The position numbers and the translations under genes are program-made. The notes under the pieces were generated by a model that worked only from the letters and a program-made list of their open reading frames with translations, ran no database searches and was not told the origin of the DNA. This document shows positions 5,104 through 63,536 of a stretch of 64,000 nucleotides of DNA, in pieces. Source of the DNA: Candidatus Altimarinota bacterium (GTDB lineage Bacteria; Patescibacteriota; Gracilibacteria; JAHISY01); contig JAIPGZ010000004.1 of the NCBI GenBank assembly GCA_021735425.1, positions 1 to 64,000 on the forward strand. Direction: 5' to 3'. Position 1 is the stretch's first letter. Every line of letters begins with the position of its first letter.

Positions 5104-5236
5104 GAATTTTAAAGTTTAAATTTAAAATTTTAAAACAAGGTCGAATGTTTGAATTTACCAATTTTGAAGCTTTCAAAATTAAGAAATTAGAGAATTTAAA
5201 ATTGTTTTAAAACTTAAAATTCGAAATTAAAAATTG
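5104..5236. repeat. AT-rich hairpin element 1
   Basis: The two halves are mutually complementary over about 62 bases around a GAAGCTTTC centre, giving a long imperfect hairpin. The right arm ends in the shared form AAATTAAAAATTG. With the palindrome at 4989 this fills the gene-free interval 4893-5265. The giant surface gene starts 29 bp downstream, so the element may lie in its leader. Confidence 0.75.
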
Positions 5237-12782: not shown

Positions 12783-12813
12783 GTTTTGGAGAATAGCAAG
12801 TAGAATGTGGAAG

Positions 12814-12927
12814 AATTTTAAATTTTAAGTTTCAAATTTTAAAACAAGATTGAATATTTAAATTTAAAAATTAAAAACTTGGGAAATTAGAAATTGTTTA
12901 AAAATTGAAAATTAGAAATTAAAAATT
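12814..12927. repeat. AT-rich hairpin element 2
   Basis: Left arm AATTTTAAATTTTAAGTTTC and a right arm ending GAAAATTAGAAATTAAAAATT are complementary along about 50 bases. It lies in the leader of the next gene, whose ATG is 8 bp past the element. Confidence 0.75.
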
Positions 12928-12934
12928 AAATCCA

Positions 12935-14224
12935 ATGCACTCTAAAATCCAAACAATAGCTCGTCGTGTCGCTGGCACATTCTGCGTATTAGCTTTGACT
13001 ATTTCGACGGTTCTTGCGGTTGGTGTGAAGCCAGTGCGGACAGAATTAATTATCGATCCAGGTGGGAGCGGATCGGCGACGATTCGTGTCATTAATTCCG
13101 AAAATATTCCTGTCATAGTTCGTCCGGAGATTACTGTTTACACCAAAAACGACGAGGAAGGCTTTCCGGTTTCTGAGAATTTATCTGCGGATGATCCGAT
13201 GAATATTCACGATTGGATTGAATTTCCAGAGGGCGATATTTCGCTGGATCCGAATTCCGAGGAGCAGGTGACTTTCACAGTGAATGTCCCAGAAGGTGCG
13301 CAGCCAGGTGGTCGCTATGCTTCGATTCTTTATACTTCCGTCGACGATGCGACTTCCGGTGGAGTCAAGATTCAAGTAGCGGTGCCGAGTTTGATTCTCG
13401 TCAAAGTTTCGGGTGAAGAAGTTCACGCTGGTGAGAGCTTGAGCTTCGGTGTCAAAGACGACAAATTACTCAGTGATTTCAATCCAATGTTGGCTGTCAG
13501 TTTCCAAAACTCTGGCAACGTTCATGAAAAACCAAGTGGTTTAATCACGCTCACTGATTCGACTGGTCAGTCTTTGACTCAGATTGCGAGATACCGCCAT
13601 CCTGTTTCAGGTGCTTTGGTTACCGGCGATGCGATTCCGATCAATCTCGATGGAGGCAATGTTTTGCCAGGTAGCTCTCGCACTTTCACTGCCGAGTGGA
13701 ATGAAAATATTCGACCGGGAAAATTCACCGCGAAGATGGAATTGAAATTCGGCGGCGATCAAGTTATCGAAAAATCAACTGATTTTGAGATTAGCGAAGA
13801 TTTGCGACTCGACAGTTTCGTCATCAATCAGCTCGAAAATTCGACTGACTTCACGATTACTCTCACCAACTCAGGTAATGTTTTCGAGAGGCTGGAAGGC
13901 ACGATTGAAATTTTAAATGAATTCGATAGCGTGATGGCTTCTCCAGAGATTCCAGCTGACGCGAAATACATCGCGCCTGGCTCGACTGCTTCGGTCACGA
14001 TTCCGTGGCTTGACAAGCAAGTCCCCAAAGGAAAATATTCCGCCAAAATTGTTGCAACACATGGTTTTACCGACACTCCGGTCGAGGGCGAAGTTCAGTT
14101 CTCCTCGGATGTTGTTGATTACATGCTCTATGGGATGATTGGAGGAGGAGTCTTAGTTTTGATTTTGCTGATTGCGGTGATTGTACTTTTAGCGAGGAAG
14201 AGAAAGCCGGAGGCAAGTGTTTAA
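12935..14224 (+). CDS. Membrane-anchored DUF916-like (WxL-interacting) surface protein
   Basis: The 429-residue protein has a signal peptide (about 1-29), then beta-sandwich domains: residues 30-150 (VKPVRTELIIDPGGSGSATIRV ... PGGRYASILYT) resemble the DUF916/WxL-binding or pilus-chaperone-like fold. Two further Ig-like domains cover about 160-275 and 280-390. A single membrane helix at about 397-420 is followed by a short basic tail (RKRKPEASV), so it is anchored with its bulk outside. In Firmicutes WxL loci such proteins bind the WxL partners. Here it follows two proteins with WxL-like C-termini on the same strand. The architecture is clear; the DUF916 assignment is moderate. Confidence 0.7.
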   Translation: MHSKIQTIARRVAGTFCVLALTISTVLAVGVKPVRTELIIDPGGSGSATIRVINSENIPVIVRPEITVYTKNDEEGFPVSENLSADDPMNIHDWIEFPEGDISLDPNSEEQVTFTVNVPEGAQPGGRYASILYTSVDDATSGGVKIQVAVPSLILVKVSGEEVHAGESLSFGVKDDKLLSDFNPMLAVSFQNSGNVHEKPSGLITLTDSTGQSLTQIARYRHPVSGALVTGDAIPINLDGGNVLPGSSRTFTAEWNENIRPGKFTAKMELKFGGDQVIEKSTDFEISEDLRLDSFVINQLENSTDFTITLTNSGNVFERLEGTIEILNEFDSVMASPEIPADAKYIAPGSTASVTIPWLDKQVPKGKYSAKIVATHGFTDTPVEGEVQFSSDVVDYMLYGMIGGGVLVLILLIAVIVLLARKRKPEASV

Positions 14225-14225
14225 A

Positions 14226-14371
14226 ATTTTCAATTTCTAATTTCTAATTTTCAAACAATTTTCAATGTAACAATTCCTCAATTTTCAAAATAACTTTTAA
14301 TTAGTTTGAAAAATTAAGAAATTAAATCATTAGAAATTGTTTATAAATTGAGAATTGAAAATTAGAAATTG
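14226..14371. repeat. AT-rich hairpin element 3
   Basis: The left arm begins CAATTTCTAATTTCTAATTT and the right arm ends AATTGAAAATTAGAAATTG; they are complementary with small gaps around ACTTTTAATTAGT. It fills most of the 181-bp gap before the SLH gene. Confidence 0.75.
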
Positions 14372-17688: not shown

Positions 17689-17693
17689 ACGAA

Positions 17694-17804
17694 AATTTTT
17701 AATTTTGTAGTTTTTAATTTTTAAATAATTTTCAAATCCTAATTTTTAAAAATTTGGAATTAAGATTTATTTCAAAAATTACAAAATTATAAAACTTAAA
17801 AATT
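17694..17804. repeat. AT-rich hairpin element 4
   Basis: Left arm AATTTTTAATTTTGTAG and right arm ending AAACTTAAAAATT are complementary over about 50 bases. It shares sequence with the insertion in 16S helix 6 (AAATCCTA at the left of centre, GGAATTAAGATTTATTT at the right), so the two are copies of one element about 830 bp apart. Confidence 0.8.
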
Positions 17805-18521: not shown

Positions 18522-18641
18522 TAATTTTTAATTTTTAGTTTTGTAATTTTATAAATAATTTCTAAATCCTATTTTTTAAATATTAAAAATTGGAAATTAA
18601 GATTTATTTAAAAATTATAAAAATTTAAAAATTAAAAATTT
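18522..18641 (+). repeat. AT-rich hairpin element inserted in 16S helix 6
   Basis: The rRNA arms CCCAGCACTT (18498-18507) and AAGTGCTGGG (18653-18662) pair perfectly. Inside them sit a UUCG-type hairpin (CTTTGTCTTCGACAAAG), this 120-base AT-rich self-complementary block, and a short CACCGAAGGTG hairpin. The block is homologous to the intergenic element at 17694-17804. It has no ORF and no group I or II intron core that I can see. Confidence 0.8.
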
Positions 18642-18770: not shown

Positions 18771-18890
18771 GAAAATTTTCAAGACTCAATTTACAAATTT
18801 TCAAATAAATCTTAATTCTCAAATATCAGTGTTTAAAAATTAGAATTTGAAATTTATTTCGTAAATTGAAAATTTGAAACTTGAAAATTC
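18771..18890 (+). repeat. AT-rich hairpin element inserted in 16S helix 10
   Basis: CTCGGCAACCT (18746-18756) and AGGTTGTCGAG (18907-18917) are the host stem. Between them lies a 120-base block with arms GAAAATTTTCAAG... and ...CTTGAAAATTC that are complementary. It has the style of the other AT-rich elements. Confidence 0.8.
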
Positions 18891-39748: not shown

Positions 39749-40096
39749 TCAAAATTCATCGGTTAAGTCAAAAAACAAAACTAATTTTTCGCATAATTCT
39801 TTTTTGTATGAATTATCAAGTATACCGATTTTTTTTATAATTCTCGTTTTATCGATTGTTCGAATTTGCGATAATTCAATTCGAGAGTCTTTTTGTAGCT
39901 TATTTTTAGAGTTGGATTTGACTATTATAGAGCTAGGAAAATTTTTGATGGTACTCGTAATCGGTGCGATTGCGACGGTCGCGATTTTTGAAGCATTGGC
40001 TAAATTATTTTGTAATACCAAACAAGGTCTAATTCCTTTTTGCTCGGAGCCTTTGGTGGGGTTGAGATTGACCAAAACGATGTCGTATTTTCGCAT
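39749..40096 (-). CDS. MazF/PemK-type endoribonuclease toxin
   Basis: The 115-residue protein has the family start YDIVLVNLNPTKGSEQKGIRPCLVLQ, the TSTIKNFPSSIIV middle and the ELSQIRTIDKTRI strand, all typical of MazF/PemK mRNA interferases. It lies 5 bp after its antitoxin gene and directly upstream of fbp. Base composition is AT-richer than fbp. The module is flanked by an 88-bp direct repeat, which suggests it was inserted. Confidence 0.9.
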   Translation of the reverse strand: MRKYDIVLVNLNPTKGSEQKGIRPCLVLQNNLANASKIATVAIAPITSTIKNFPSSIIVKSNSKNKLQKDSRIELSQIRTIDKTRIIKKIGILDNSYKKELCEKLVLFFDLTDEF

Positions 40097-40101
40097 GATA
40101 A

Positions 40102-40332
40102 CTATAAATTACTAGGATGATTGGCAATCGACAACCATTCGTTCATCTCTGTTTGGTCTTCTCCCATTTGTTTGTAGCCTTGAGATATTTTTCGGCTTTT
40201 GATTTCTTTTTTGTAAAAAGAAATAGCCTGCTCCAAAATTTCTCGTTTGGTTTTATTTAATGCACTAGCCTGTTTTGTAATGAAACTTATTAAGCTAGGG
40301 TCGAGATTTGTAGTCAGACGGGAGGTGTTCAT
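40102..40332 (-). CDS. Ribbon-helix-helix antitoxin
   Basis: The 76-residue protein begins with a likely RHH DNA-binding domain (SRLTTNLDPSLISFITKQASALNKTKREILEQA in parts) and ends in an acidic toxin-binding tail (GEDQTEMNEWL). It pairs with the MazF-type toxin 5 bp downstream. The RHH part probably represses the shared promoter. No Shine-Dalgarno is seen before the ATG. Confidence 0.85.
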   Translation of the reverse strand: MNTSRLTTNLDPSLISFITKQASALNKTKREILEQAISFYKKEIKSRKISQGYKQMGEDQTEMNEWLSIANHPSNL

Positions 40333-51010: not shown

Positions 51011-51817
51011 ATGAAACTCGAATTTAAAAATTCTCGTGTAGTCCGCGCCGAAAAATTTCTCGCGGAGGAGTTGCCTTTCCTGAAGCGGTCGTTTTTGCAA
51101 AAACTTTTTCGCAAATGCGAAATTAAAGTTGAAGGAATTGCCCAAAAGGTCGATTCCAAGATTCAGCCGAATTCTGTCGTCGAAATTTTCCTCCCTGAGC
51201 CACGAAAATATTTCACTGATTTGACTGGCAACGCGATTATTCACGAAGATGAAAATGTGATTGCTTTCGACAAACGTGCGGGGATTCCGACGCACTCGGG
51301 GATTGGGACGCGAGGCGATGATTTGAAGAATTGCGCGAAGATTCTCCTGAAACGCAATTTAATCGTCGTCCACCGCATCGACCGTGCCACGAGTGGAGTC
51401 GTCGTTTTCGCGAAGAATCAGAAGACGGCGCGGAAGTTGGAAGACGAATTTCGCGAGCGGCGGGCAGAGAAGATTTATCACGCTGTGGTTATCGGTCATC
51501 CGCCTCAAGAGGGGATTAGTGAAAAAAAGATTTTGCGGATGGGAAAACAAATGGAGCTTTCTGAGAAAGGTGTCGCGGCCAAAACTCTTTGGAAAGTTGT
51601 ACGCAAACTAGGCAGAAACTCTTTGCTTGAGGTGCGCATCGAGACTGGTCGGATGCATCAAATCCGCGTTCATCTCGCCGCGGCGGGTTTCCCGATTGTG
51701 GGGGATTCAGTTTACGGCAAGGCGACGGAGTCGCGGATGTTGCTGCATTCGAGCAGTTTGAAAATTCTGGATTATACTTTTGAGGATAAATTGCCGAAGG
51801 AATTTTTAAATTTTTAA
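51011..51817 (+). CDS. RluA-family pseudouridine synthase
   Basis: The ATG at 51011 (268 aa) follows a GGAAAG ribosome-binding site; the frame extends upstream without family similarity. An S4 RNA-binding domain covers about 15-60. The catalytic motif is VVHRIDRATSGVVVFAKN with the active Asp, and GRMHQIRVHLAAAGFPIVGDSVYG closes the core. It isomerises uridines in rRNA or tRNA. Its stop overlaps the next AT-rich element. Confidence 0.9.
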   Translation: MKLEFKNSRVVRAEKFLAEELPFLKRSFLQKLFRKCEIKVEGIAQKVDSKIQPNSVVEIFLPEPRKYFTDLTGNAIIHEDENVIAFDKRAGIPTHSGIGTRGDDLKNCAKILLKRNLIVVHRIDRATSGVVVFAKNQKTARKLEDEFRERRAEKIYHAVVIGHPPQEGISEKKILRMGKQMELSEKGVAAKTLWKVVRKLGRNSLLEVRIETGRMHQIRVHLAAAGFPIVGDSVYGKATESRMLLHSSSLKILDYTFEDKLPKEFLNF

Positions 51818-51914
51818 TTTTGTAATTTTTGAAATAAATCTAAAATCCAAAATTTTAAAAATTAGAAATTAAAGTTTATTTATAAAATTCAAGAATTTTA
51901 AAAATTAAAAATTG
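51812..51914. repeat. AT-rich hairpin element 7, overlapping two genes
   Basis: Arms AATTTTTAATTTTGTAAT and the right arm ending AATTTTAAAAATTAAAAATTG pair around CCAAAATTTTAAAA. The left end contains the stop of the pseudouridine synthase gene and the right end contains the TTG start of ispG. Confidence 0.75.
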
Positions 51915-52940
51915 TCCACCAAAGTAATCCAGATCGGCAAACTCAAGATTGGCGGCAAGACTCCGGTGACTATTCAGAGCATGCTGAATACTCCAGCGAA
52001 TAATTTTGCAAAAAGCACGAAACAAATTCGAGAGTTATTGAAAGCTGGTTGCCAGATTTTCCGAGTCGCCGTTCCGAGTCCTGAATCAATCCAGACTTTG
52101 GCGAAAATCCGTAAAAAGTTTCCTGCTTTACCACTCGTGGCTGATATCCATTTCTCGGCTGAGCTCGCCATCGCGGCAGCGGAATTTGTCGACAAGATTC
52201 GCATCAATCCGGGCAATTTCCCGCCGGCGCAATTAGCCGCCATCGTCAAAATTTGTCGCGCCAAGCAAATCCCGATTCGCGTCGGGGTGAATTCTGGTTC
52301 GCTCGAAAAAAACATTCCTGGTAAAAATCTACCAGAAAAACTAGCGCATTCTGCGCTGCAAAGTGTTCGGAAAATTGAAAAATTGGGCTTCCGCGATTTA
52401 GTCGTCTCGGTCAAAAGCTCGGACATTGCGACAATGGTCGCCGCGAATCGCATCCTCGCCAAAAAAATTAATTACCCTCTCCACCTCGGTGTGACCGAGG
52501 CTGGCTCACCGCGATTTGGCATTCTGAAGTCGGCGGTCGGCATCGGCAGTCTCTTGCTCGACGGCATCGGCGACACGATTCGAATTTCCCTCACGGGCGA
52601 TCCAGTCGCGGAAGTCGAAGCGGCGCAAGATTTGTTGCGGGTTCTCAAGATTCGCAAAGGCGTCGAAGTCGTCGGTTGTCCGACCTGTGGACGGACGGAA
52701 GTTGATTTACCCAAAATTTTGGCGCAAGTCGAAAAAGCGGTTGAAAAAATTGATAAACCTATGAAAATAGCGGTGATGGGCTGCATCGTGAATGGTCCAG
52801 GCGAAGCGGCGGATGCTGATTTCGCGCTCGTGGGCGGGAAAGAAAAATTTGCGATTTATGCGAAAGGAAAGTTTTTGAAAAGTGTAAAAGAGAAAGATGC
52901 TGTTGCGGAGTTTTTGAAAACAATTCAAAACGAATTTTAA
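51912..52940 (+). CDS. ispG: 4-hydroxy-3-methylbut-2-enyl diphosphate synthase
   Basis: The 342-residue protein starts at TTG 51912, inside the right arm of an AT-rich hairpin, with IGGKTPVTIQSMLNTP close behind as in IspG. The TIM barrel carries VADIHFSAELA, KIRINPGN and RVGVNSGSLE. The 4Fe-4S cysteines are in GCPTCGRTEVD and MGCIVNGPGEA. It makes HMBPP in the MEP isoprenoid pathway, which many CPR bacteria lack, so its presence says this lineage keeps at least part of it. Confidence 0.95.
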   Translation: MSTKVIQIGKLKIGGKTPVTIQSMLNTPANNFAKSTKQIRELLKAGCQIFRVAVPSPESIQTLAKIRKKFPALPLVADIHFSAELAIAAAEFVDKIRINPGNFPPAQLAAIVKICRAKQIPIRVGVNSGSLEKNIPGKNLPEKLAHSALQSVRKIEKLGFRDLVVSVKSSDIATMVAANRILAKKINYPLHLGVTEAGSPRFGILKSAVGIGSLLLDGIGDTIRISLTGDPVAEVEAAQDLLRVLKIRKGVEVVGCPTCGRTEVDLPKILAQVEKAVEKIDKPMKIAVMGCIVNGPGEAADADFALVGGKEKFAIYAKGKFLKSVKEKDAVAEFLKTIQNEF

Positions 52941-54508: not shown

Positions 54509-54568
54509 AAAAAATTTTCAAATTTTACAAGTTTCATAATTCTCAAATAAAATTCAATTTTCAAATTA
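54509..54568. repeat. Left arm of AT-rich element enclosing a four-helix-bundle gene (site 1)
   Basis: AAAATTTTCAAATTTTAC and following bases pair, imperfectly, with the right arm at 54919-54960 on the far side of the gene. Confidence 0.6.
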
Positions 54569-54570
54569 AA

Positions 54571-54918
54571 ATGGATTATAATCTCGAAGAACGAACAGCA
54601 AAATTCGGAGAAGATGTGATTATCTTTTTGCGGATAATTCCGCGAGATGAAATTACTCGACCGTTAATTTCTCAACTAATTCGTGCATCGACATCAATTG
54701 GTGCTAATTATTGCGAGGCTAGCGAGGCTGCTAGCAAAAAAGATTTCCGCAATAAAATTTGCATTGCGCGGAAAGAGGCTCACGAATCGAAACATTGGCT
54801 CAGGATGATTGCCAAGGCTGTGCCAAATTTCGCCCAAAAGGCACGCGAACTTTGGAAAGAGGCTCACGAATTGACTTTGATTCTCGCTTCAATCACAAAA
54901 AAATGTGACCCAAGCTGA
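54571..54918 (+). CDS. Four-helix-bundle protein (S23/23S rRNA intervening-sequence type), copy 1
   Basis: The 115-residue protein has the family pattern LEERTAKFGEDVIIFLR, LISQLIRASTSIGANYCEA, ASKKDFRNKICIARKEAHES and LWKEAHELTLILASI. This family is best known from ORFs inside 23S rRNA intervening sequences. It is about half identical to the gene at 60000-60344. Both genes sit between AT-rich arms that pair with each other, with start and stop codons within a few bases of the arms. Confidence 0.85.
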   Translation: MDYNLEERTAKFGEDVIIFLRIIPRDEITRPLISQLIRASTSIGANYCEASEAASKKDFRNKICIARKEAHESKHWLRMIAKAVPNFAQKARELWKEAHELTLILASITKKCDPS

Positions 54919-54960
54919 ATCTTGAAAATTTTTTTATAATTATAAAATTTAAAAATTATT
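54919..54960. repeat. Right arm of AT-rich element (site 1)
   Basis: TCTTGAAAATTTTTTTATAA and the following AT run pair with 54509-54568. It ends at the ATG of the next gene. Confidence 0.6.
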
Positions 54961-54961
54961 T

Positions 54962-55504
54962 ATGGTTCTCACTGAATCTGTCAAAGGCCTCGAAAATACT
55001 TCTGCGAAAGATTTCACTCTGCCCAGTAGTGATGGCAAGACTTACTCGCTCGCTGATTTCGCCGCCGCCAAAGTTTTGGTGGTGGTTTTTATGTGCAATC
55101 ATTGCCCTTATGTTTTGGCAGTCTTAGAAAGACTGAATTCGCTTGCTGCAGATTTCGCAGAGAGGGGAGTCCAATTCGTCGGGATCAATTCCAACGACTC
55201 CACCGATTACCCCGCTGACAGCTTCGGAAAAATGCAAGACTTAGGTGCACAATTTCCCTACCTACACGACGAGAGCCAAGAGATTGCGACGAAATATCAC
55301 GCTGTCTGTACGCCCGATATTTTTGTCTACGACGAGCGGCGGCAACTGAAATATCATGGTCGGATCGATGACAATTGGCAGGAACCAGAGAAAGTGCAAA
55401 AAGAAGAATTAAAAGTAGCGCTGGAAAAAATTCTGGCTGGTGAAGAGATTCCGCGCGAAGAGCAAAATCCGGTGATGGGCTGTTCGATTAAATGGAAAAG
55501 ATGA
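54962..55504 (+). CDS. Thioredoxin-fold peroxiredoxin/redoxin protein
   Basis: The 180-residue protein is a redoxin: DFTLPSSDGKTYSLADF, a CxxC active site in FMCNHCPYVLA, VQFVGINSNDSTDYP and CTPDIFVYDERRQLKYHGRIDDNW. It resembles the AhpC/TSA-like group with the CNHCPY motif. No signal peptide, so it is cytoplasmic. Overlaps the next gene by 13 bp. Confidence 0.85.
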   Translation: MVLTESVKGLENTSAKDFTLPSSDGKTYSLADFAAAKVLVVVFMCNHCPYVLAVLERLNSLAADFAERGVQFVGINSNDSTDYPADSFGKMQDLGAQFPYLHDESQEIATKYHAVCTPDIFVYDERRQLKYHGRIDDNWQEPEKVQKEELKVALEKILAGEEIPREEQNPVMGCSIKWKR

Positions 55505-56172
55505 GAAAAATTCTCGCAATCTGGCGACAGCGAATCAGATTTTTTAGGCTCGAACATTTTACTCGGCTTCATGAAAAAGATTTCACGACGATTCAGTCCA
55601 AAAAAACTCCGGTCGTTTTGGTCGCTGGGATTTACGCGGGCGGGCGGAGCTTATTGCCGCTGAAAAAATTTCTCGAATCCCAAAATTATCCCGTTTACCT
55701 CGCGCCAGAAAAGCAAAATTACGAGGTGGTTTCGATTCTCGCCAAAAGATTAGAAAAACAAATTCAAAATATTCCTGCCCCAAAAGTTCAAATCGTGGCG
55801 CACTCAATGGGCGGAATTACTGTTTTGCAAGCCTTACAGAATCCCAAAACTTTCGCGAAGGTCAAACAAGTCATCACGCTCGGATCGCCGCTCAATGGTT
55901 GTCTTTTGGGTAGTTTGGCTTTTCTCGAGCAGAGGCGGAATCAAAAATATCTCGCGCTCAACTCCCGAGTGATCGAAAAACTTAACCTCAACCCCAAAAT
56001 CAATCGTAAGATTCGGGCTTTGCATGCCTACTTTGACGGAATTGTTTTTCCCAAAAAAAGTACACAGCTGGCTTGCGCGAAAGAAAATTCTGAAATCCCG
56101 ATTTACGGGCACGTCGGTTTGATTCTGGCGAAGAAATCGTGGCAGGAGATTCTAAAACGTCTGGTGAAATAA
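55492..56172 (+). CDS. Lipase-like alpha/beta hydrolase
   Basis: The 226-residue protein has a basic N-terminus, VVLVAGIYAGGRSLLPLKKFL as the oxyanion strand, the nucleophile elbow QIVAHSMGGITVLQAL, LGSPLNG and a late His (GHVGLIL). It resembles small triacylglycerol-lipase or PGAP1-like esterases. Co-transcribed with the redoxin gene; substrate unknown. Confidence 0.8.
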   Translation: MEKMRKILAIWRQRIRFFRLEHFTRLHEKDFTTIQSKKTPVVLVAGIYAGGRSLLPLKKFLESQNYPVYLAPEKQNYEVVSILAKRLEKQIQNIPAPKVQIVAHSMGGITVLQALQNPKTFAKVKQVITLGSPLNGCLLGSLAFLEQRRNQKYLALNSRVIEKLNLNPKINRKIRALHAYFDGIVFPKKSTQLACAKENSEIPIYGHVGLILAKKSWQEILKRLVK

Positions 56173-56178
56173 TGATTT

Positions 56179-56946
56179 TTACTGACTGATTTTTTTCTCA
56201 ATCTCCGCCCGCAGTTTCGCAAAACCGGCTCCGGTTACTGCCGAGATTTTGATTGAATTCTCACCGGCGTGGTCAGCGAGGTCGATTTTATTCGCGACGA
56301 GAATTTGCGGATTGCGGTCGGCTTTCAGATCTATCAGAATTTCCTTGACGACTTTTTGCTTCCGTCGGATTTCCTTGCGGTCATCCGAAGCGTCGAAAAT
56401 ATGGAGCAGTAAATCTGCTTCGCGGACTTCCTCGAGTGTCGCGCGGAAAGCTGCGATTAAGTCCGGCGGCAATTTCTCAATAAAGCCAATCGTGTCGGCG
56501 AGTAAAACCTTTTTCTGAATTTTCGGCAGCCAGAGACTCCCGAGTCGCGGGTCGAGAGTCGCGAAAAGTTTGTCGGCGACGAAAACATTTTTCTTACTGG
56601 TTAGATTTTTTAATAAAGTTGATTTGCCAGAATTCGTGTAACCGACGAGGGCGACGGTCAACAAATTCTGCCGTCGGCGGGCGGCTCGTTGGTTGCCTCG
56701 CAAAATTTTCAGCCGATCTATTTTGGCGTCGATTATTTTTATCTCCCGCAAAATATGTCGTTTTTCCGCTTCGATGCCTGTCTCGCCAGCACCGCGCTGG
56801 ACGACTCCGCCGCCGCGTTCTCGTTCGAACAAGGTCGTCGAAGCTCGTCGGTAAAGTTTTGGAATGTCGTATTTCAGTCGTGCTCGTTTGACCTGCAATT
56901 TCGCCTCAGTCGTAGAGGCGTGTTTCTCAAAAATTCGCAAAATCAA
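56179..56946 (-). CDS. hflX: GTPase HflX, C-terminal part (split by in-frame UGA)
   Basis: This part holds the helical linker (FEKHASTTEAKLQVKRARLKY) and the G domain: VGYTNSGKSTLLKNL, ADTIGFIEKLPPDLI and LVANKIDLADH. HflX rescues or splits stalled ribosomes. It is in the same frame as the part at 56959-57258 and separated from it by one UGA (56959-56961). Restart at TTG 56946 would give a protein without the N-terminal domain; readthrough would give a normal full-length HflX. Confidence 0.85.
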   Translation of the reverse strand: MILRIFEKHASTTEAKLQVKRARLKYDIPKLYRRASTTLFERERGGGVVQRGAGETGIEAEKRHILREIKIIDAKIDRLKILRGNQRAARRRQNLLTVALVGYTNSGKSTLLKNLTSKKNVFVADKLFATLDPRLGSLWLPKIQKKVLLADTIGFIEKLPPDLIAAFRATLEEVREADLLLHIFDASDDRKEIRRKQKVVKEILIDLKADRNPQILVANKIDLADHAGENSIKISAVTGAGFAKLRAEIEKKISQ

Positions 56947-56958
56947 GTCAACTCGATC

Positions 56959-57258
56959 TCAGACCAGGACGGGAATCCGCGAGCTCAATTCGAAAATTTG
57001 GTTGCCTTTCAAAATTCCATTTACGACCACAACGTCGCATTTCAGCTCTGCTGCTGTCGCTCCAATCTCTTCTGCCTTGCCTGTCCCGAGGTAAGTCTTG
57101 CCGCTTGGTTGTCCTCGTTTTTGAATAATTTTCACCACGGTCATGCCGCCGAGTGTCTCGACTAGCCGAATGAGTTCGGCGAAATGTTTTTCCTCATCGA
57201 TTTTTGCTAAATCTTTTGGAATCACATCTGCCATGATGACGCGCAATTTATCTGACAT
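56959..57258 (-). CDS. hflX: GTPase HflX, N-terminal part (ends at in-frame UGA)
   Basis: The 99 residues match the HflX N-terminal domain: HFAELIRLVETLGG, GTGKAEEIGATAAELKCDVVVVNG and NQIFELSSRIPVLV. The next codon is UGA, and the same frame continues at once as DRVDLILRIFEKHAST. Many HflX proteins have VWDRVDLIL here, so the UGA probably replaces a Trp (UGG) codon. It overlaps the YjbQ gene by 11 bp. Confidence 0.85.
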   Translation of the reverse strand: MSDKLRVIMADVIPKDLAKIDEEKHFAELIRLVETLGGMTVVKIIQKRGQPSGKTYLGTGKAEEIGATAAELKCDVVVVNGILKGNQIFELSSRIPVLV

Positions 57259-57655
57259 CTGGAATTATTTTTACCACAACCTCACGTTCGCGCGGTCTGA
57301 CATCAAAATCGATCAAAACTAAATTTTGCCAAGTACCGAGGGCGAGTCTATTTTTCTCAATCGGAATAGAAATTGATGGCGGGGAAAGGGCGGATTTGAC
57401 GTGCGCCGCACCGTTACCGTCGTTCCATTTCGCGTGAAAATAATCGCCCTTTTGCGGGGCGATTCTCTCTAGTGCTGCGACTAAATCTTTCTGCGTTCCT
57501 GCTTCCCATTCCATCAGCGTCAGCCCGACAGTGGTGTGCTGTGCGAAGATTACTGCCACTCCAGATTTGACGCCCGACTCGGCGATGATTTCCCCGACAC
57601 GCTCGGTCAGATTCACAAGATCGTAATTACCGGCGGTTTGGATCGCAAAACGCAT
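57248..57655 (-). CDS. YjbQ family protein (UPF0047)
   Basis: The 135-residue protein has the family marks VAVIFAQHTTVGLTLMEWEAG, HAKWNDGNGAAHVKSAL and LGTWQNLVLIDFDVRPREREV. YjbQ proteins have weak thiamine-phosphate synthase activity; the true role is unclear. First gene of the leftward pair with hflX. Confidence 0.9.
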   Translation of the reverse strand: MRFAIQTAGNYDLVNLTERVGEIIAESGVKSGVAVIFAQHTTVGLTLMEWEAGTQKDLVAALERIAPQKGDYFHAKWNDGNGAAHVKSALSPPSISIPIEKNRLALGTWQNLVLIDFDVRPREREVVVKIIPDVR

Positions 57656-57704
57656 CGAGTAAAGATTAACGAAAAAGGTGAAAAGAATGAAATTGCTGTT
57701 TGTC

Positions 57705-57733
57705 TTGACAAGATAATATAAAAGTATTATTAT
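57705..57733 (+). promoter_or_regulatory. Strong sigma-70-type promoter TTGACA-17-TATTAT
   Basis: A consensus TTGACA (57705-57710) and TATTAT (57728-57733) with an ideal 17-bp spacer. It is the best promoter match in the window and drives the structured leader and secreted-protein gene. Confidence 0.85.
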
Positions 57734-57739
57734 AAGAAC

Positions 57740-57966
57740 CTTTTCAGGTAGAAATTGTGATGCTCCTTGAAATCACGCAACTATAAAATCGAGGGCAACT
57801 TGTCCGCGTGAATTTTGATTCTTACGAGAAGTCAAAGTTCCAACTTGCGGTAGGTGGGCAAGTCCCCCTCGATTTGCCTGTACCGCCCCTGCCAGCAAAT
57901 GGTAATTGTTTGCAGCGGTGGTGCAGGCAAAAAAATAAAAAATGAAAAACGAAAAAGGAGAAAAAA
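57740..57966 (+). promoter_or_regulatory. Structured 5' leader, candidate cis-regulatory RNA
   Basis: Three paired regions are visible: CACGC/GCGTG (57774-57778, 57806-57810), AAATCGAGGG/CCCTCGATTT (57786-57795, 57866-57875) and GCCTGTACCGC with GCGGTGGTGCAGGC (57876-57886, 57915-57928). The first two interlock, so they form a pseudoknot or exclude each other. A strong AAGGAG ribosome-binding site follows. No known riboswitch class was recognised. With the promoter this explains the gene-free stretch 57656-57966. Confidence 0.5.
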
Positions 57967-58533
57967 ATGAAAAAATTAATAATGAGTTTTTTGGTAATTC
58001 TGATCAGCGCATTTTGCGCGAGCTCCGCTTTATCCGCGGAGAACACTAATGTTTCAATCTCCGCATTTAGTGGAGATTGGCATGGCGGCGAGCTCGCCGT
58101 CCAAAAGCCTTTTGGCAATAGCTTTGGGGAGTTTAAACTTTCTGGAGCTGATGATGGAGACGGTGATTCTTACTTTTCTGCCGACCTAGTATTTGGCACA
58201 GAAGTTTTTAAAAACGTTTCCGTCTTCGGCGGCCTGACCGGTGGCTGTCGAGATGGCCTAGGGGAAAGAGATTATTTCAATTACGTCGGCATTAAAGTCG
58301 GCGCGATGTTGGAAGTTGGACCAGTATATGTCAAGGGGTGGGATACCATAGCTCCCCCGGCGACAAAAAGTACTGACTATTATTATGTCGCACCCGCCGT
58401 AGAGGCGGGGGTTAAAATTTCAGAAAACTTTTCTTTCGCCGTCAGAGCGACAGGTGAAAGACGTGGTATTAACGACAGACGGGTCTCCTTCAAAGAGACC
58501 CACATAGTCGGAATGGTCTCTTTTAAGTTTTAA
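57967..58533 (+). CDS. Secreted small beta-barrel-like protein (outer-membrane-protein style)
   Basis: The 188-residue product has a clear signal peptide (1-24, ...SSALSAEN) and alternating beta strands (FGEFKLSGADD, YFSADLVFGTEVF, VSVFGGLTGG, NYVGIKVGAMLEV, YYVAPAVEAGVKI), ending in Phe (MVSFKF) as outer-membrane barrels do. It has its own consensus promoter, long leader, strong ribosome-binding site and terminator, unlike most genes here, which suggests transfer or a highly expressed envelope protein. CPR bacteria are thought to lack an outer membrane, so the role is unclear. No specific family recognised. Confidence 0.75.
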   Translation: MKKLIMSFLVILISAFCASSALSAENTNVSISAFSGDWHGGELAVQKPFGNSFGEFKLSGADDGDGDSYFSADLVFGTEVFKNVSVFGGLTGGCRDGLGERDYFNYVGIKVGAMLEVGPVYVKGWDTIAPPATKSTDYYYVAPAVEAGVKISENFSFAVRATGERRGINDRRVSFKETHIVGMVSFKF

Positions 58534-58604
58534 AAAAAAGGGGGGAAGCCGCATTTTGGGGGAAGCCTGCAGACACCATTCCGCAGTTTCCCCCCCTTTT
58601 TTTT
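58532..58604. terminator. Bidirectional rho-independent terminator
   Basis: An A8G6 run (58532-58547) pairs with C7T8 (58588-58604), giving a T-tract on both strands. It serves the secreted-protein gene and the convergent radA gene, whose stop codon is at 58605. Confidence 0.85.
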
Positions 58605-59921
58605 CTATTGAAATACTTTTTTAATTGCCTCACTTACGCTGCGAAATTCTTTTCCGCTGGCGATTTTTTCGAAACCCATTTTTTGCGATTCCTTTTTGCG
58701 TTTTTCGATTTGGGAGACTGAGCGGATTTCGCCTGTCAGGCCGATTTCGCCGAAAGCCGTTAGGTCGGTGGACAGCGGAATTTTTTTCTGCGAACTCGCG
58801 ATTGCCAAAGCCACCGCCAGATCTGCTGCTGGTTCGCGCAGTCGAAACCCGCCGACGACATTCACAAAAACATCGCTTGAGTCTAATTTTATTCTGGCGT
58901 GTTTTTGTAAAACAGCGATGATGAGCTGCAAGCGATTTAAATCAAAACCACTCGCGGCGCGTTTCGGATAACCGAAAACGGAGGGCGCGGTGAGCGCCTG
59001 GACCTCGACCAGCAGTGGGCGGGTGCCTTCCAGGGTCGTCGCGACACAGCTCCCGACTGGGTTTTCCGCGCGACCTTCGAGGAAAGCGGCGGAAGGATTT
59101 TTTACCTCGACGAGACCAGCCTCCTTCATTTCGAAAACTCCGACTTCACTCGTGGCCCCGAAACGATTTTTCACGCTACGCAGTAAACGAAAATCATAAT
59201 TCGCGTCGCCTTCCAAAGTTAAAACTACATCGACGAGATGAGAGAGTAGGCGTGGTCCGGCAAGGTCTCCGTCTTTCGTGACATGCCCAATTAGAATTAC
59301 AGGTGTTTTGGTTGATTTAGCGAAGCGCAGCAGTCGCTCCGTGACGATTCGGATTTGGGGAATACTGCCCGGCATCGATGACAATTCCAGCGAGGAAAAA
59401 ACTTGGACCGAATCGACAATTAATAATTTTGGTTTTTCGATTTCCGCTGCGGCAATCAAATTTTCCAAAATGTTTTCGCCGACAATTTTCAAATCTCCGT
59501 CGGCGTGTCCGATGCGACCCGCTCGCAACGCAATTTGTTCCGCTGATTCCTCTCCGCTAGCGAGCAAGACTGGACCGAATTCTGTCGCGAATTGCGAGGC
59601 GAGTTGCAGCGTCAAAGTCGACTTGCCGATACCTGGTTCGCCACCGAGGAGGATCAAACTGCCTGGGACGATTCCGCCGCCGAGGACGCGGTCTGCTTCG
59701 TCGATTTTCGTTTTCAATCGCAGCAGGGGAGTGCTGATTAGTTCTCGCGCACTTTTAACATCGCCGACTGTCCCGATTACTTTTTCCTTTTTACCAAAAA
59801 CTTTTTGCTCGACTTTTTCCTCCATCATTGAATTCCATTCGCCGCACGCGCTACACTGCCCCGCCCAGCGAGGAGACTGGGAGCCGCATTTTTCACACGT
59901 GAAGATGGTTTTATCTTTCAT
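58605..59921 (-). CDS. radA: DNA repair protein RadA
   Basis: The 438-residue protein has a zinc finger (Cys9, Cys12, Cys23, Cys26), a RecA-like ATPase with Walker A GGEPGIGKSTL, the RadA motif KNRFGATSEVG, and a C-terminal Lon-like domain (VNVVGGFRLREPAADLAVALAIASS in pieces). It drives branch migration in recombination. Length is normal. Confidence 0.95.
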   Translation of the reverse strand: MKDKTIFTCEKCGSQSPRWAGQCSACGEWNSMMEEKVEQKVFGKKEKVIGTVGDVKSARELISTPLLRLKTKIDEADRVLGGGIVPGSLILLGGEPGIGKSTLTLQLASQFATEFGPVLLASGEESAEQIALRAGRIGHADGDLKIVGENILENLIAAAEIEKPKLLIVDSVQVFSSLELSSMPGSIPQIRIVTERLLRFAKSTKTPVILIGHVTKDGDLAGPRLLSHLVDVVLTLEGDANYDFRLLRSVKNRFGATSEVGVFEMKEAGLVEVKNPSAAFLEGRAENPVGSCVATTLEGTRPLLVEVQALTAPSVFGYPKRAASGFDLNRLQLIIAVLQKHARIKLDSSDVFVNVVGGFRLREPAADLAVALAIASSQKKIPLSTDLTAFGEIGLTGEIRSVSQIEKRKKESQKMGFEKIASGKEFRSVSEAIKKVFQ

Positions 59922-59942
59922 TAATTTTTTTAAGCTTAACTA

Positions 59943-60007
59943 AAAAATTTTCAATTTCTAATTTCTAATTTTCAAACAATTCTTAAATTTACTAATTTCT
60001 CAATTTT
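59943..60007. repeat. Left arm of AT-rich element enclosing a four-helix-bundle gene (site 2)
   Basis: CAATTTCTAATTTCTAATTT onward pairs with the right arm at 60351-60409. The stop codon of the enclosed gene (60000-60002) lies inside this arm. Confidence 0.7.
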
Positions 60008-60344
60008 TCAAACTTGTTGAGATTTTATTAAAAATAAGAGTTAATTCATGGGCTTCCTTCCACAATTTTTGAAGGACGGTTTTAGCTTCAGGATTTGTTT
60101 CTGCCAATAATTCAATCCAAAGCTCGGTTTCTTGAATTTCTTTTCGAGAAATAAAAATTTTATTCCGAAAATCTTTTTTAGAACTTGCGGCATTTGCTTC
60201 GCGATAATTTGCCGCCACACTTGTAGCGCAGCGAAGTAGCTGCCGAATGATATTCTCGTTGAGATAATTCATTTTTATTTTTTTCACAACTCGGATTACC
60301 GCAACTGCAAACTTCTTCGTTCTTTCTTCGAGATCATATTGCAT
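60000..60344 (-). CDS. Four-helix-bundle protein (S23/23S rRNA intervening-sequence type), copy 2
   Basis: The 114-residue protein shows LEERTKKFAVAVIRVVK, IIRQLLRCATSVAANYREA, SSKKDFRNKIFISRKEIQE and LWKEAHELTLIFNKI. It is a clear paralogue of the gene at 54571. It is bounded on both sides by AT-rich arms that pair with each other, so gene plus arms look like one unit of about 470 bp. Confidence 0.85.
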   Translation of the reverse strand: MQYDLEERTKKFAVAVIRVVKKIKMNYLNENIIRQLLRCATSVAANYREANAASSKKDFRNKIFISRKEIQETELWIELLAETNPEAKTVLQKLWKEAHELTLIFNKISTSLKN

Positions 60345-60350
60345 AATTCA

Positions 60351-60409
60351 AGAATTGAAACCTTGAAAATTGTTTAGAAATTGAAAATTAGAAATTAATT
60401 TAAATTAAA
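60351..60409. repeat. Right arm of AT-rich element (site 2)
   Basis: GAAAATTGTTTAGAAATTG and following bases pair with 59943-60007. It reaches the 3' end of the next leftward gene. Confidence 0.7.
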
Positions 60410-61880: not shown

Positions 61881-62004
61881 AATTTCTAATTTTCAATTAT
61901 CAATTTTCAAACAATTCTTCAATTTGTTAATTTCTCAATTTTCAAGAAGTTTAGAAATTGCATAATTAGAAATTGTTTGAAGATTAGAAATTAAAAATTG
62001 AAAA
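61881..62004. repeat. AT-rich hairpin element 10
   Basis: Left arm AATTTCTAATTTTCAATTAT and right arm GAAATTAAAAATTGAAAATT pair along about 55 bases around TTCAAGAAGTTTAG. It lies between the 5' end of proC and the 3' end of the nnr gene (both leftward). Confidence 0.75.
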
Positions 62005-62013
62005 TTTTTGAGA

Positions 62014-63426
62014 TTAAAACCTCTTATCGAGAATTTTCCTCACCACTTTTGGAATTTCTCTTGCGAGTAGCTGGGGAGTGGTGCTTTCCGATTTTACCGC
62101 AATTTTCTTCCCGGCGAGACCGACCAAAAAAGCTGCGATTCCTGCCGCCTCGAAAGGTTCGACTTCCCTCGCCAGTAATCCGCCAACGATTCCTGCCAAA
62201 ACATCGCCCGTCCCGCCGACAGTCAAAATTGGGTTGCCTTGATCGTTCCATCTTGTCTGAGTAGAGGAGTGGATTGTGTCTACTTTGCCTTTTTCTAGAA
62301 TTACAGAATTTAGTTTTTTAGATAAACCCCTACAGTTAGTGGCACTAGAGGTAGTGCTGCTAGGGCTAGTATGTTCCAATAAACGTTTTAGCTCTCCGCC
62401 ATGGGGAGTCAAGACTACTTTTTTTGAAACGAATTTCGGTAAATTCGGAATCAGAGCGTCGGCATCGAAAACTAGTGGTTGCCGACAATTTCTCGCCAAA
62501 AATTCAATTGCCGCGATGGTTTCCTTTTGCTTCCCGAGTCCTGGTCCGACGACGAGAGTTGCTTTGTTTTTGCTCGCGAATTCCAAAATCTTCGCAGCTG
62601 CCGTGAGAGTCAAAAATCCCGAATTACCTAAAAATTTTCGCACTAAAAAATTTGGTGAGAATTTTCTTGCGGCTGAAAAATTCACCGCTGGCACGAAGAT
62701 TTCGACCAAATCGACGCCGATTGCCGCCGCGCCTAATCCAGCAAAAAGTGGGGCGCCGACGAATTCTGCGCTTCCGCCGATGATTACCACACGACCGTTT
62801 TTACCTTTGTGTGAATCCAACTTCCGGCGCGGAAAATAAAATTTCACATCACCGGGTCCGAAATGAGTTTCGGCGATTTTGGGGATTCCAATCGGAACCA
62901 CTATTTCGTTTTTTGAGTTTTTGGAAGCATGAAAAGCGACGACGAGTTTGGGTTTCAATTTCGACGAAGTGGCAACATCCAAACTTACTAAATTTCCCTT
63001 CGCTTTCATGAGTTTCTGCACGATTACATTAAGGGGTTTTTGCAAGCCTCCTACTGCTCCGATGCCGAGCAAAGCATCGACGAGGATGTCTCCGTCGAAT
63101 TTTGTTTTCACAGAAAAAATTGAAATAACTTTTGCCGACAGTTTCGCGCAATGATGTCTGGCAGCTTTTGTCCGAATCCGTGATTTTGCGACTGCGAGGA
63201 TGACTTCGACCTCGATTTTTTTCGCCAAAAATTCCGCTGCGAGTGCAAAACTATCGCCTCCATTATTTCCTCCGCCGCAGAAAATCTGTACTTTCCGAGG
63301 TTTTTTCCACTTCTGTAAAATCGCCCTACAAGCTTCTTTGCCAGCTCGATTCATCAGTTTCGTCACACTCACACCGCGGAATTCGGCGTTGTGGTCGATA
63401 ATTTGAGAAGAGAGGGCGGATTTCAC
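62014..63426 (-). CDS. nnr: Bifunctional NAD(P)HX epimerase/dehydratase
   Basis: The 470-residue protein joins a YjeF-N epimerase domain (FCGGGNNGGDSFALAAEF; VDALLGIGAVGGLQ) to a ribokinase-like ADP/ATP-dependent dehydratase (GKNGRVVIIGGSAEFVGAP; VVGPGLGK; LTVGGTGDVLAGIVGGLLA). It repairs hydrated NAD(P)H. Near 62341-62358 a hairpin (GGCACTA-GAGG-TAGTGCT) adds a Ser/Thr stretch (TSPSSTTSSATN) not expected in the family. The GTG start lies just after a CATAAAAT -10-like element. Confidence 0.92.
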   Translation of the reverse strand: MKSALSSQIIDHNAEFRGVSVTKLMNRAGKEACRAILQKWKKPRKVQIFCGGGNNGGDSFALAAEFLAKKIEVEVILAVAKSRIRTKAARHHCAKLSAKVISIFSVKTKFDGDILVDALLGIGAVGGLQKPLNVIVQKLMKAKGNLVSLDVATSSKLKPKLVVAFHASKNSKNEIVVPIGIPKIAETHFGPGDVKFYFPRRKLDSHKGKNGRVVIIGGSAEFVGAPLFAGLGAAAIGVDLVEIFVPAVNFSAARKFSPNFLVRKFLGNSGFLTLTAAAKILEFASKNKATLVVGPGLGKQKETIAAIEFLARNCRQPLVFDADALIPNLPKFVSKKVVLTPHGGELKRLLEHTSPSSTTSSATNCRGLSKKLNSVILEKGKVDTIHSSTQTRWNDQGNPILTVGGTGDVLAGIVGGLLAREVEPFEAAGIAAFLVGLAGKKIAVKSESTTPQLLAREIPKVVRKILDKRF

Positions 63427-63456
63427 GAAAACATTTTATGCTAAAATCGGGCGGAA

Positions 63457-63527
63457 ATTTTCAATTTTCAATTTACAAATTTTTAAACAATTCTCAATAA
63501 CTAAATTCTCAATTTTCAAACAAATTT
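63457..63527. repeat. AT-rich element arm upstream of the last gene
   Basis: CAATTTACAAATTTTTAAAC onward matches the left-arm form of the family; no right arm is seen before the gene, and it might lie beyond the window. Confidence 0.55.
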
Positions 63528-63536
63528 AATTTTAAA

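Follow-up and report, generated by a model that had tools for sequence, protein, structure and literature searches.

The question raised by this locus is whether two small four-helix-bundle genes, each set between AT-rich arms in a 64,000-nucleotide stretch of a Candidatus Altimarinota genome (the window; genome G000, 97.5% complete), are parts of one mobile element resembling the intervening sequences (IVSs) of rRNA genes, as a first-pass annotation had proposed. Genes of this kind (PF05635, S23) occur in many phyla yet have no accepted function, and a role as cargo of a mobile hairpin is testable. Such a hairpin would also provide a concrete origin for rRNA IVSs, a decades-old question for which a mobile element is one of the hypotheses listed in PMC4990558.

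S23 genes and their arms in the window

The assignment of both genes to the S23 type was upheld by profile matches to PF05635 (S23 / 23S_rRNA_IVP) that scored 56 and 60 bits, exceeding the curated cut-off, and the two proteins are 49% identical. The elements containing them, designated A (54509-54961) and B (59943-60409), are each ~450 bp long (Table 1). In the proposed layout, quasi-tandem 7-nt repeats make up the 5' arm, the S23 ORF fills the loop and a complementary 3' arm follows. The claim that the arms around each gene pair with each other held clearly for element B (score 24 against a dinucleotide-shuffled mean of 13.6–14.8, reached by 1–2 of 500 shuffles) and only marginally for element A taken by itself (18.5 against 13.6–13.9, reached by 11–21 of 500 shuffles). 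In the predicted RNA fold of B the arms close end to end (z -3.5), the fold of A being weaker (z -2.5).

Table 1. Elements, hairpins and arms located in the window.
Feature	Position	Strand	Evidence or remark
Element A, 5' arm	54509-54569	+	AATTTTC/TCTCAAAT-type dialect; pairs with 54920-54961, marginal alone
Element A, S23 (PF05635) ORF, 115 aa	54571-54918	+	Profile match; sense with both neighbour genes
Element A, 3' arm	54920-54961	+	Complementary to 54509-54569
Element B, 5' arm	60351-60409	-	TTTCTAA/TTTTCAA heptad dialect; pairing and fold
Element B, S23 (PF05635) ORF, 114 aa	60000-60344	-	Profile match; sense with both neighbour genes
Element B, 3' arm	59943-60007	-	Pairing and fold; 8-nt overlap with ORF end
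ORF-less heptad hairpin in 16S rRNA helix h6	18523-18640	+	G001 has S23-bearing element in same helix
ORF-less heptad hairpin near 16S rRNA h10	18772-18890	+	Dialect resembles element A; absent in G003, G005
ORF-less hairpin, same kind	5105-5235		Pairing against shuffles, heptad periodicity
ORF-less hairpin	12811-12932		No hairpin at site in G003
ORF-less hairpin, element B dialect	14220-14370		Pairing against shuffles
ORF-less hairpin	17689-17800		Missing at this site in G001
ORF-less hairpin	51797-51916		Pairing against shuffles
ORF-less hairpin, element B dialect	61881-62007		Pairing against shuffles
Solitary arm, element B dialect	63455-63531		Sequence likeness

Like known IVSs, A and B contain an S23 / PF05635 ORF, have ORF-less counterparts and possess complementary ends that make a stem (by pairing, fold and the many-locus test below), but both genes lie outside rRNA genes; strictly speaking, A and B are thus not IVSs but IVS-like elements located elsewhere than in rRNA. 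Pairing across a gene can also arise in another way: 12863-12927 pairs with 14225-14289 across an unrelated gene (12935-14224), and 61947-62007 with 63455-63515 across another (62014-63426), the partners being arms of different hairpins; dispersal and a shared dialect allow such arms to face each other. The decisive evidence comes from a test over many loci and from empty sites, not from loci A and B alone.

Arm pairing and heptad periodicity across loci

For each S23 gene the pair formed by its own 150-nt flanks was scored against swapped pairs from other loci. The own pair exceeded 95% of swapped pairs at 93 of 140 Patescibacteria loci (99% at 65 of the 140) and at 50 of 74 loci in a GTDB-wide scan (43 of 64 outside Patescibacteria), compared with 9 of 126 neighbouring ORFs (7%) and 4 of 65 pairs tested in direct-repeat orientation. 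The expectation that S23 flanks elsewhere would likewise be complementary was thus confirmed, far above chance and above neighbouring genes. About one third of S23 genes showed no detectable arm pairing within the 150-nt flanks; decay, domestication, or ends lying beyond these flanks are offered as alternatives.

The arms consist of quasi-tandem 7-nt repeats whose sequence varies between loci while pairing is kept. Lag-7 autocorrelation was 0.42 on both sides of 214 unselected loci, against 0.26 in pieces 0.7–0.9 kb away, and 0.51 in confirmed arms; the periodicity is also present in the ORF-less hairpins of the window. The description of one ‘AT-rich hairpin family’ is sound only within this genus, AT-richness being no more than a local dialect; in general, arm sequence is not fixed, and conservation extends to the 7-nt periodicity and to self-complementarity. 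The fixed terminal inverted repeats common to the copies of a DNA transposon or MITE were not found, the arms being locus-specific. Freely drifting yet paired arms are unusual for the ends of a mobile element, and they probably stay matched through repeat slippage together with templating of one arm on the other in the folded hairpin. The asymmetry of G.U wobbles, used as a test for pairing at the RNA level, did not reach significance, with counts of 168:134 in Patescibacteria (p 0.06) and 85:87 in other groups, so pairing may take place at the DNA level.

Empty sites and copies at other sites

The proposal that a single IVS-like mobile element exists in ORF-bearing, empty and rRNA-inserted states gained support from the empty sites it had called for, found in sister genomes and on Nostoc plasmids. 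Element A (arm and gene) is absent from its site in G002, G003 and G004, the site of element B is empty in the same three genomes, and a further copy also has an empty site. An arm-to-arm copy of element B (91% identity) lies in the sister genome G001 at a non-orthologous site that is empty here, with a dS of 0.59 compared with about 2 or saturation for host genes, and a dN/dS of 0.04 for the S23 gene; judged by such substitution rates, the protein is under purifying selection. Low dS alone is no proof of late transfer, since the S23 gene of element A (dS 0.72) is less diverged than its neighbours even though its site in G001 is orthologous; the copy there appears frameshifted.

One gap on Nostoc plasmids occurs in three filled and six unfilled versions, with the arms extending to the junction, and the same element is present at unrelated sites in Aulosira, Trichormus and Scytonema. 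ORF-less and S23-bearing forms of one dialect also lie within one operon of these plasmids, in agreement with the idea of one element in several forms. The sequences show that the arms are the ends of the element and that its insertions lie in rRNA helices and in the short gaps separating co-directional genes. No clear target-site duplication was seen at the junctions examined (a possible ATG repeat at one), and one protein query against 50,697 phage records gave no match, leaving carriage of S23 on phages unsupported at that sensitivity.

ORF-less hairpins and insertions in 16S rRNA

The window holds eight ORF-less AT-rich hairpins, of which two lie within the 16S gene. Pairing exceeded all 200 shuffles in seven of the eight, and all but one in 12811-12932. 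The insertion in 16S helix h6 is ORF-bearing in the sister species G001, ORF-less in G000 and G003, and lacking in G005, which again accords with several forms of the same element, and S23 also occurs in the h6 region of G033, from a distant family. The rRNA location typical of IVSs is thus seen in the two ORF-less 16S hairpins here and in the S23-bearing 16S copies of G001 and G033. The sequences show that hairpins of the same dialect lacking an ORF are inserted and polymorphic as well. Only 2 of 214 S23 loci had rRNA motifs near the gene, and the remainder lie nearly all in protein operons or intergenic gaps, with many copies per genome. In the best reading, rRNA IVSs belong to a widespread mobile hairpin, as those of its members that have inserted into rRNA.

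Orientation and distribution

Between co-directional genes S23 was sense-oriented in 109 cases against 8 (also 52:5), a bias to which the survival of expressed copies may contribute in part; native genes, in a small sample, were also mostly co-oriented with their neighbours. A role as cargo of a mobile hairpin explains this sense placement in operons. PF05635 genes were present in 59% of sampled Patescibacteria genomes, at up to 11 copies per about 1 Mb, and G000 has nine matches. A tree of 175 S23 proteins contained 11 changes between Patescibacteria and other groups, at least 7 of them by well-supported branches, with query-biased sampling outside Patescibacteria; the phylogeny suggests some inter-phylum transfer within a mostly clustered distribution.

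Mode of spread

Taken together, A and B are very probably two ORF-bearing copies of a small mobile hairpin element. The element would be transcribed as a sense-oriented part of the host operon or rRNA and fold into a long stem, and would for that reason be harmless to its host; RNase III could cut the stem, as in known rRNA IVSs. We infer that an S23 pentamer produced from the element's own ORF binds to the repetitive stem and aids the copying or insertion of that element. Profile searches of G000 gave no match to RVT_1 (reverse transcriptase, RT) or PF01797 (Y1_Tnp), and on present data neither an RT nor a Y1 transposase is required in the same genome. We lean, with some reserve, towards an unrecognised class of mobile element, in which an S23 ORF within a self-complementary, hypervariable heptad stem is inserted in sense and spreads without a transposase or RT of its own in Patescibacteria, Bacteroidota, Cyanobacteria, Bacillota, Pseudomonadota and others. 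If this is true, a single system would include rRNA IVSs and the ‘cas-associated’ IVP genes as well as many of the heptanucleotide repeats of cyanobacteria and many of the ORF-less hairpin inserts in rRNA.

A possible, if doubtful, alternative is that no dedicated enzyme is involved, the hairpin being spread by hairpin-templated replication errors and illegitimate recombination, with S23 carried along and doing no more than protect the transcript. Dialects that differ between loci while pairing is kept agree with slippage and hairpin-templated correction, and the lack of a detected RT or Y1 transposase in G000 and of a clear target-site duplication points the same way; however, arm-to-arm copies with an intact ORF at unrelated sites, together with the low dN/dS, suggest that the ORF is needed for spread.

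It is unlikely that the element is a non-autonomous retroelement whose transcript is copied by an RT in trans (DGR-type or group II intron), with S23 as an Avd-like partner. PF05635 is described as homologous to the DGR accessory protein Avd and belongs to the same four-helix-bundle family (structures 2GSC and 4DWL; PMC10053308), and the strong sense bias would fit, but G000, with its nine S23 matches and many polymorphic hairpins, has no RVT_1 match, on which ground an RT in trans was rejected as a requirement; many other multi-copy S23 genomes also lack an RT. S23-positive genomes were more frequent among RT-positive genomes (37 of 48 against 49 of 97, p 0.002), yet the same held for the Y1 transposase (49 of 66 against 37 of 79, p 0.001), so the RT enrichment probably tracks general mobile-element load.

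Hairpin ends, intergenic location and no obvious target duplication resemble what is seen for DNA-level hairpins mobilised in trans by an IS200/IS605- or RAYT-type Y1 transposase (REP/BIME-like), and the Y1 enrichment also speaks for such a mechanism. We regard this as quite improbable: the arms have no fixed recognition sequence, the orientation bias follows host transcription, insertions lie within rRNA helices, and mobilisation in trans was rejected on the finding that G000 has no detected Y1_Tnp.

Its sense position in operons and the stable stem might suggest that S23 is simply a gene of the host, with the arms acting as a terminator or regulatory stem. This is scarcely credible, since the empty sites already contradict it, as do ORF-less copies, insertions in rRNA and the occurrence of copies at unrelated sites. 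A low-complexity artefact, with AT-rich flanks pairing with anything, is next to negligible: locus A alone is marginal and within-genus swapped pairs also score through their shared dialect, but swapped pairs generally score like background, arms of non-AT-rich dialects pair equally well, and the swapped-pair, direct-orientation and neighbour-gene controls were all low.

Relation to known systems

Through the mobile hairpin, the long-known rRNA IVSs are linked with a far broader family of mobile DNA. As in the S23-bearing IVSs of Coxiella and Leptospira (PMC4990558), S23 lies in the loop between complementary ends in an element of about 430-450 nt. The Coxiella 23S IVS has tandem heptamers (GACAGAT) directly before S23, a 28-bp terminal inverted repeat and RNase III cutting (PMC4990558); heptamers before the ORF and insertion into an rRNA helix, as in 16S h6 of G001, are shared. 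In contrast to IVSs, the S23 loci here are nearly all outside rRNA, multi-copy and accompanied by ORF-less forms. A survey of CPR rRNA insertions reported ORFs of the 23S_rRNA_IVP type at several sites in 16S and 23S genes, together with numerous short inserts without an ORF, left uncharacterised, at the tips or bases of rRNA stem-loops; a term search of its text returned neither heptad arms nor copies outside rRNA (PMC11270868).

The ORF-less form resembles the cyanobacterial STRR and the P6b stem of the tRNA-Leu(UAA) intron, in which degenerate 7-nt repeats pair into a hairpin inside structured RNAs (PMC3488679; Vioque 1997 via PMC2858038). The architecture of 7-nt periodic pairing arms is common to both, the two Nostoc plasmid forms share one dialect, and cyanobacterial heptanucleotide repeats and S23 hairpins may descend from one element; no connection to S23 was found in PMC3488679 or PMC2858038. 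MITEs, REPINs and BIMEs are likewise short, dispersed, hairpin-forming and non-coding in intergenic gaps, but in the present elements the terminal sequence is not fixed, a target-site duplication was not seen, and G000 has no Y1 transposase partner. In a search that lay mostly outside the subscription literature, we found no paper connecting S23 genes with heptad arms or with mobility beyond rRNA.

Lastly, 23S_rRNA_IVP has been listed as a CRISPR-linked gene (PMC3936711, PMC10910872). The S23 copy between cas6 and cas4 in Anabaena sp. 90 is flanked by heptad arms of the typical kind and seems to be a hitchhiker, and guilt by association is risky for 23S_rRNA_IVP genes beside cas genes.

Complementary heptad arms flank S23 genes

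The Patescibacteria source genome G000 (997 kb, 38 contigs, 97.5% complete), of which the window is contig 2 (GC 45%), held nine PF05635 matches, and both genes that the first-pass annotation had called four-helix-bundle S23 type indeed belonged to this family, the two proteins being 49% identical. Each S23 copy in G000 had its own low-complexity 7-nt repeat type (its dialect), the reverse complement of which was repeated on the opposite side; these dialects were of GGAATATTGAATAATGG-, AAATGCAAAATG-, CAATGTGCAGTGTACA-, TAGGGTTTAGGG- and TTTCTAATTTTCAA-type. The annotation had also proposed that the AT-rich arms bracketing both genes pair, which was clear for locus B but, for locus A taken alone against dinucleotide shuffles, marginal. 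ORF-less AT-rich hairpins occupied eight places in the window, two of them within the 16S gene, and these hairpins, both 16S inserts included, had a 7/8-nt periodicity as in the S23 arms.

Coordinates of elements, genes and other features (window positions unless stated)
Feature	Position	Strand	Remark
Element A	54509-54961	+	
S23 gene, locus A	54571-54918	+	PF05635, 23S_rRNA_IVP
Element B	59943-60409	-	
S23 gene, locus B	60000-60344	-	PF05635, 23S_rRNA_IVP
ORF-less hairpin	12811-12932		missing in G003
ORF-less hairpin	17689-17800		missing in G001
PemK/MazF-type toxin gene	39749-40096	-	region 39749-40332
76-aa ORF	40102-40332		no Pfam match
HflX-type GTPase gene	56179-57258	-	GTP-bdg_N, GTP-bdg_M, MMR_HSR1
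In-frame stop in HflX-type gene	56946-56959		one stop
Intergenic gap L008/L080	G000 contig 14:10567-11016 / L080:346-524		S23-bearing element in G000

Elsewhere in the window, the ORF adjoining the toxin gene could encode its antitoxin, and the stop in the HflX-type gene represents a recent pseudogene, a sequencing error or recoding.

The pairing was examined across loci by taking 150 nt from either side of each gene and aligning the upstream piece to the reverse-complemented downstream piece; own pairs were compared with pairs swapped between loci. Over 140 Patescibacteria loci the mean score was 16.6 for own against 9.5 for swapped pairs, and the own pair exceeded 95% of swapped pairs in 93/140 loci and 99% in 65/140; excluding the window's own family, 71 of 109 own pairs passed. 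A GTDB-wide sample of 74 loci, mostly from Bacteroidota, Bacillota and Pseudomonadota, behaved similarly (50/74 above 95%, 38/74 above 99%; 43/64 outside Patescibacteria), whereas only 9/126 other ORFs in the same stretches passed, one of these itself an S23 gene, and 4/65 when direct replaced inverted orientation. The expectation that S23 flanks are complementary beyond chance was thus borne out: the arms are complementary and locus-specific.

The arms are also heptad repeats, with autocorrelation in 115 well-paired arms of 0.51 (lag 7) and 0.45 (lag 14), compared with 0.30 in shuffled arms, and, without selection, of 0.42 on both sides of all 214 loci versus 0.26 in pieces 0.7-0.9 kb away. 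On the sense strand the 5' arm was G-rich (G>C in 162 loci, C>G in 44) and the 3' arm C-rich (146 loci versus 54), TAG and CAG being enriched in the 5' arm at 7-nt spacing across the 214 loci; this asymmetry could provide a binding register for an S23 ring.

Empty sites and moved copies

Searching the window region as DNA in the sister genomes, and reading alignments and junctions, showed that G001 shares the filled state of locus A with G000; G002, G003 and G004 were empty there and also at locus B. The radA site occupied by element B in G000 carried a different S23 element in G001, where a copy of element B, 91% identical from arm to arm, lay at another site (C34) that was empty in G000, G002, G003 and G004. 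Host genes of G000 and G001 differed by dS of about 2 or were saturated, compared with dS 0.59, dN 0.024 and dN/dS 0.04 for the element B copies; element A, however, also had a low dS (0.72) though its site is orthologous, so the argument for mobility rests on the non-orthologous positions and not on dS.

The cleanest junctions are those of Nostoc plasmids, found via protein search. Within one operon, the second gap of pNsp_c contained an S23 element whose arms are of GGGAAAA type, and its first gap contained none; in pC052_D and pNsp_a the arrangement was reversed, the first gap holding an S23 element with arms of GTCAGGA type and the second gap none. Three plasmids had the element in the first gap and six lacked it, two of the six being further plasmids of strain C052; the junctions read ..GGTTCTAG|GTTATGC.. 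when empty and ..GGTTCTA|AATCAGGAGTCAGGAGTCAG..S23..CTGACTTCTGGATTCTGA|TTATGC.. when filled, the arms extending to the junction, with no clear target duplication there. Aulosira, Trichormus and Scytonema carried the same element at unrelated sites (78-81% identity over about 400-420 bp, arm to arm). We conclude with high confidence that this is a mobile unit bounded by its arms.

ORF-less hairpins were polymorphic too (Table), and pNsp_a had a further one upstream in the same dialect, which pC052_D lacked. Solitary 7-8-nt repeat arms without partner, at the orthologs of 12811 in G003 and 17689 in G001 where G000 has the full hairpin, are either remnants or one-armed precursors. The locus A ortholog in G001 (L063, contig 27) retained its arms, its S23 ORF being apparently frameshifted past a T run through decay or homopolymer error. 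At the L008/L080 gap, an apparent insertion hot spot, G001 had a hairpin without ORF that differed in dialect and had a GC-richer loop; G004 had neither form.

rRNA-inserted forms

The 16S gene measured 1497 nt without insert in G005, 1612 nt with one hairpin in G003, 1780 nt with two hairpins in G000 and 2055 nt in G001, where a sense S23 ORF with its own arms replaced helix h6 at exactly the position of the ORF-less hairpins of G000 and G003 (helices named by position and context). Together with the empty sites in sisters, this agrees with the suggestion of ORF-bearing, empty and rRNA-inserted forms. In the distant Patescibacteria genome G033, an S23 element whose arms are of GTTAACAATTAAC type lay in the h6 region of the 16S gene, the Rfam 16S start falling on the far side of the insert and the gene's 5' end being readable upstream of S23. 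Since 16S or 23S motifs were near S23 at only 2/214 loci, rRNA is a minor home. The Coxiella 23S intervening sequence, which is cut by RNase III, carries tandem GACAGAT heptamers 5' of its S23 ORF (PMC4990558), an independent report that ties the classical intervening sequence to the present element; the two very likely belong to one family.

Proposed mechanism

Between co-directional genes, S23 was sense in 109 and antisense in 8 cases in Patescibacteria, and 52 versus 5 elsewhere, a bias which with the rRNA insertions points to an element living inside host transcripts. There its stem would fold, and the element is probably, on balance, tolerated at the RNA level; the locus B RNA fold had z -3.5, and a wobble test did not separate RNA from DNA pairing. 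We infer that S23 would bind its own heptad stem and, as a tentative possibility, promote the spread of its own element. PF05635 has solved structures (2gsc, 2rld), and XCC0516 has been described as a homopentameric toroid (PMC4990558) and as a homologue of DGR Avd (PMC10053308). As for a candidate copying enzyme, neither RVT_1 nor Y1_Tnp had a match in G000; their statistical enrichment among genomes that carry S23 (p 0.002 and 0.001, respectively) looks like general mobile-element load.

Relation to known systems

S23 ORFs within rRNA intervening sequences and IVP ORFs within CPR rRNA inserts (PMC11270868) were already known, as were hairpins of heptanucleotide repeats inside the tRNA-Leu intron of cyanobacteria (PMC3488679) and heptamer repeats in intergenic regions (PMC4679880), and intervening sequences had been speculated to be formerly mobile (PMC4990558). 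New, as far as the literature searched shows, are that the majority of S23 genes belong to an arm-bounded unit outside rRNA, that in different phyla these arms consist of paired heptad repeats specific to each locus, that the element has empty sites, moved copies and a sense bias, and that a single dialect occurs in both ORF-bearing and ORF-less forms.

Published cas-IVP associations may reflect hitchhiking. In type I-D CRISPR loci, an S23 gene separated cas6 from cas4 in Anabaena sp. 90 pANA02 (L272), with typical heptad arms (AGGTGACAGGTGACAGG), and in Pseudanabaena galeata pPg_01 (L274), with arms not clearly resolved.
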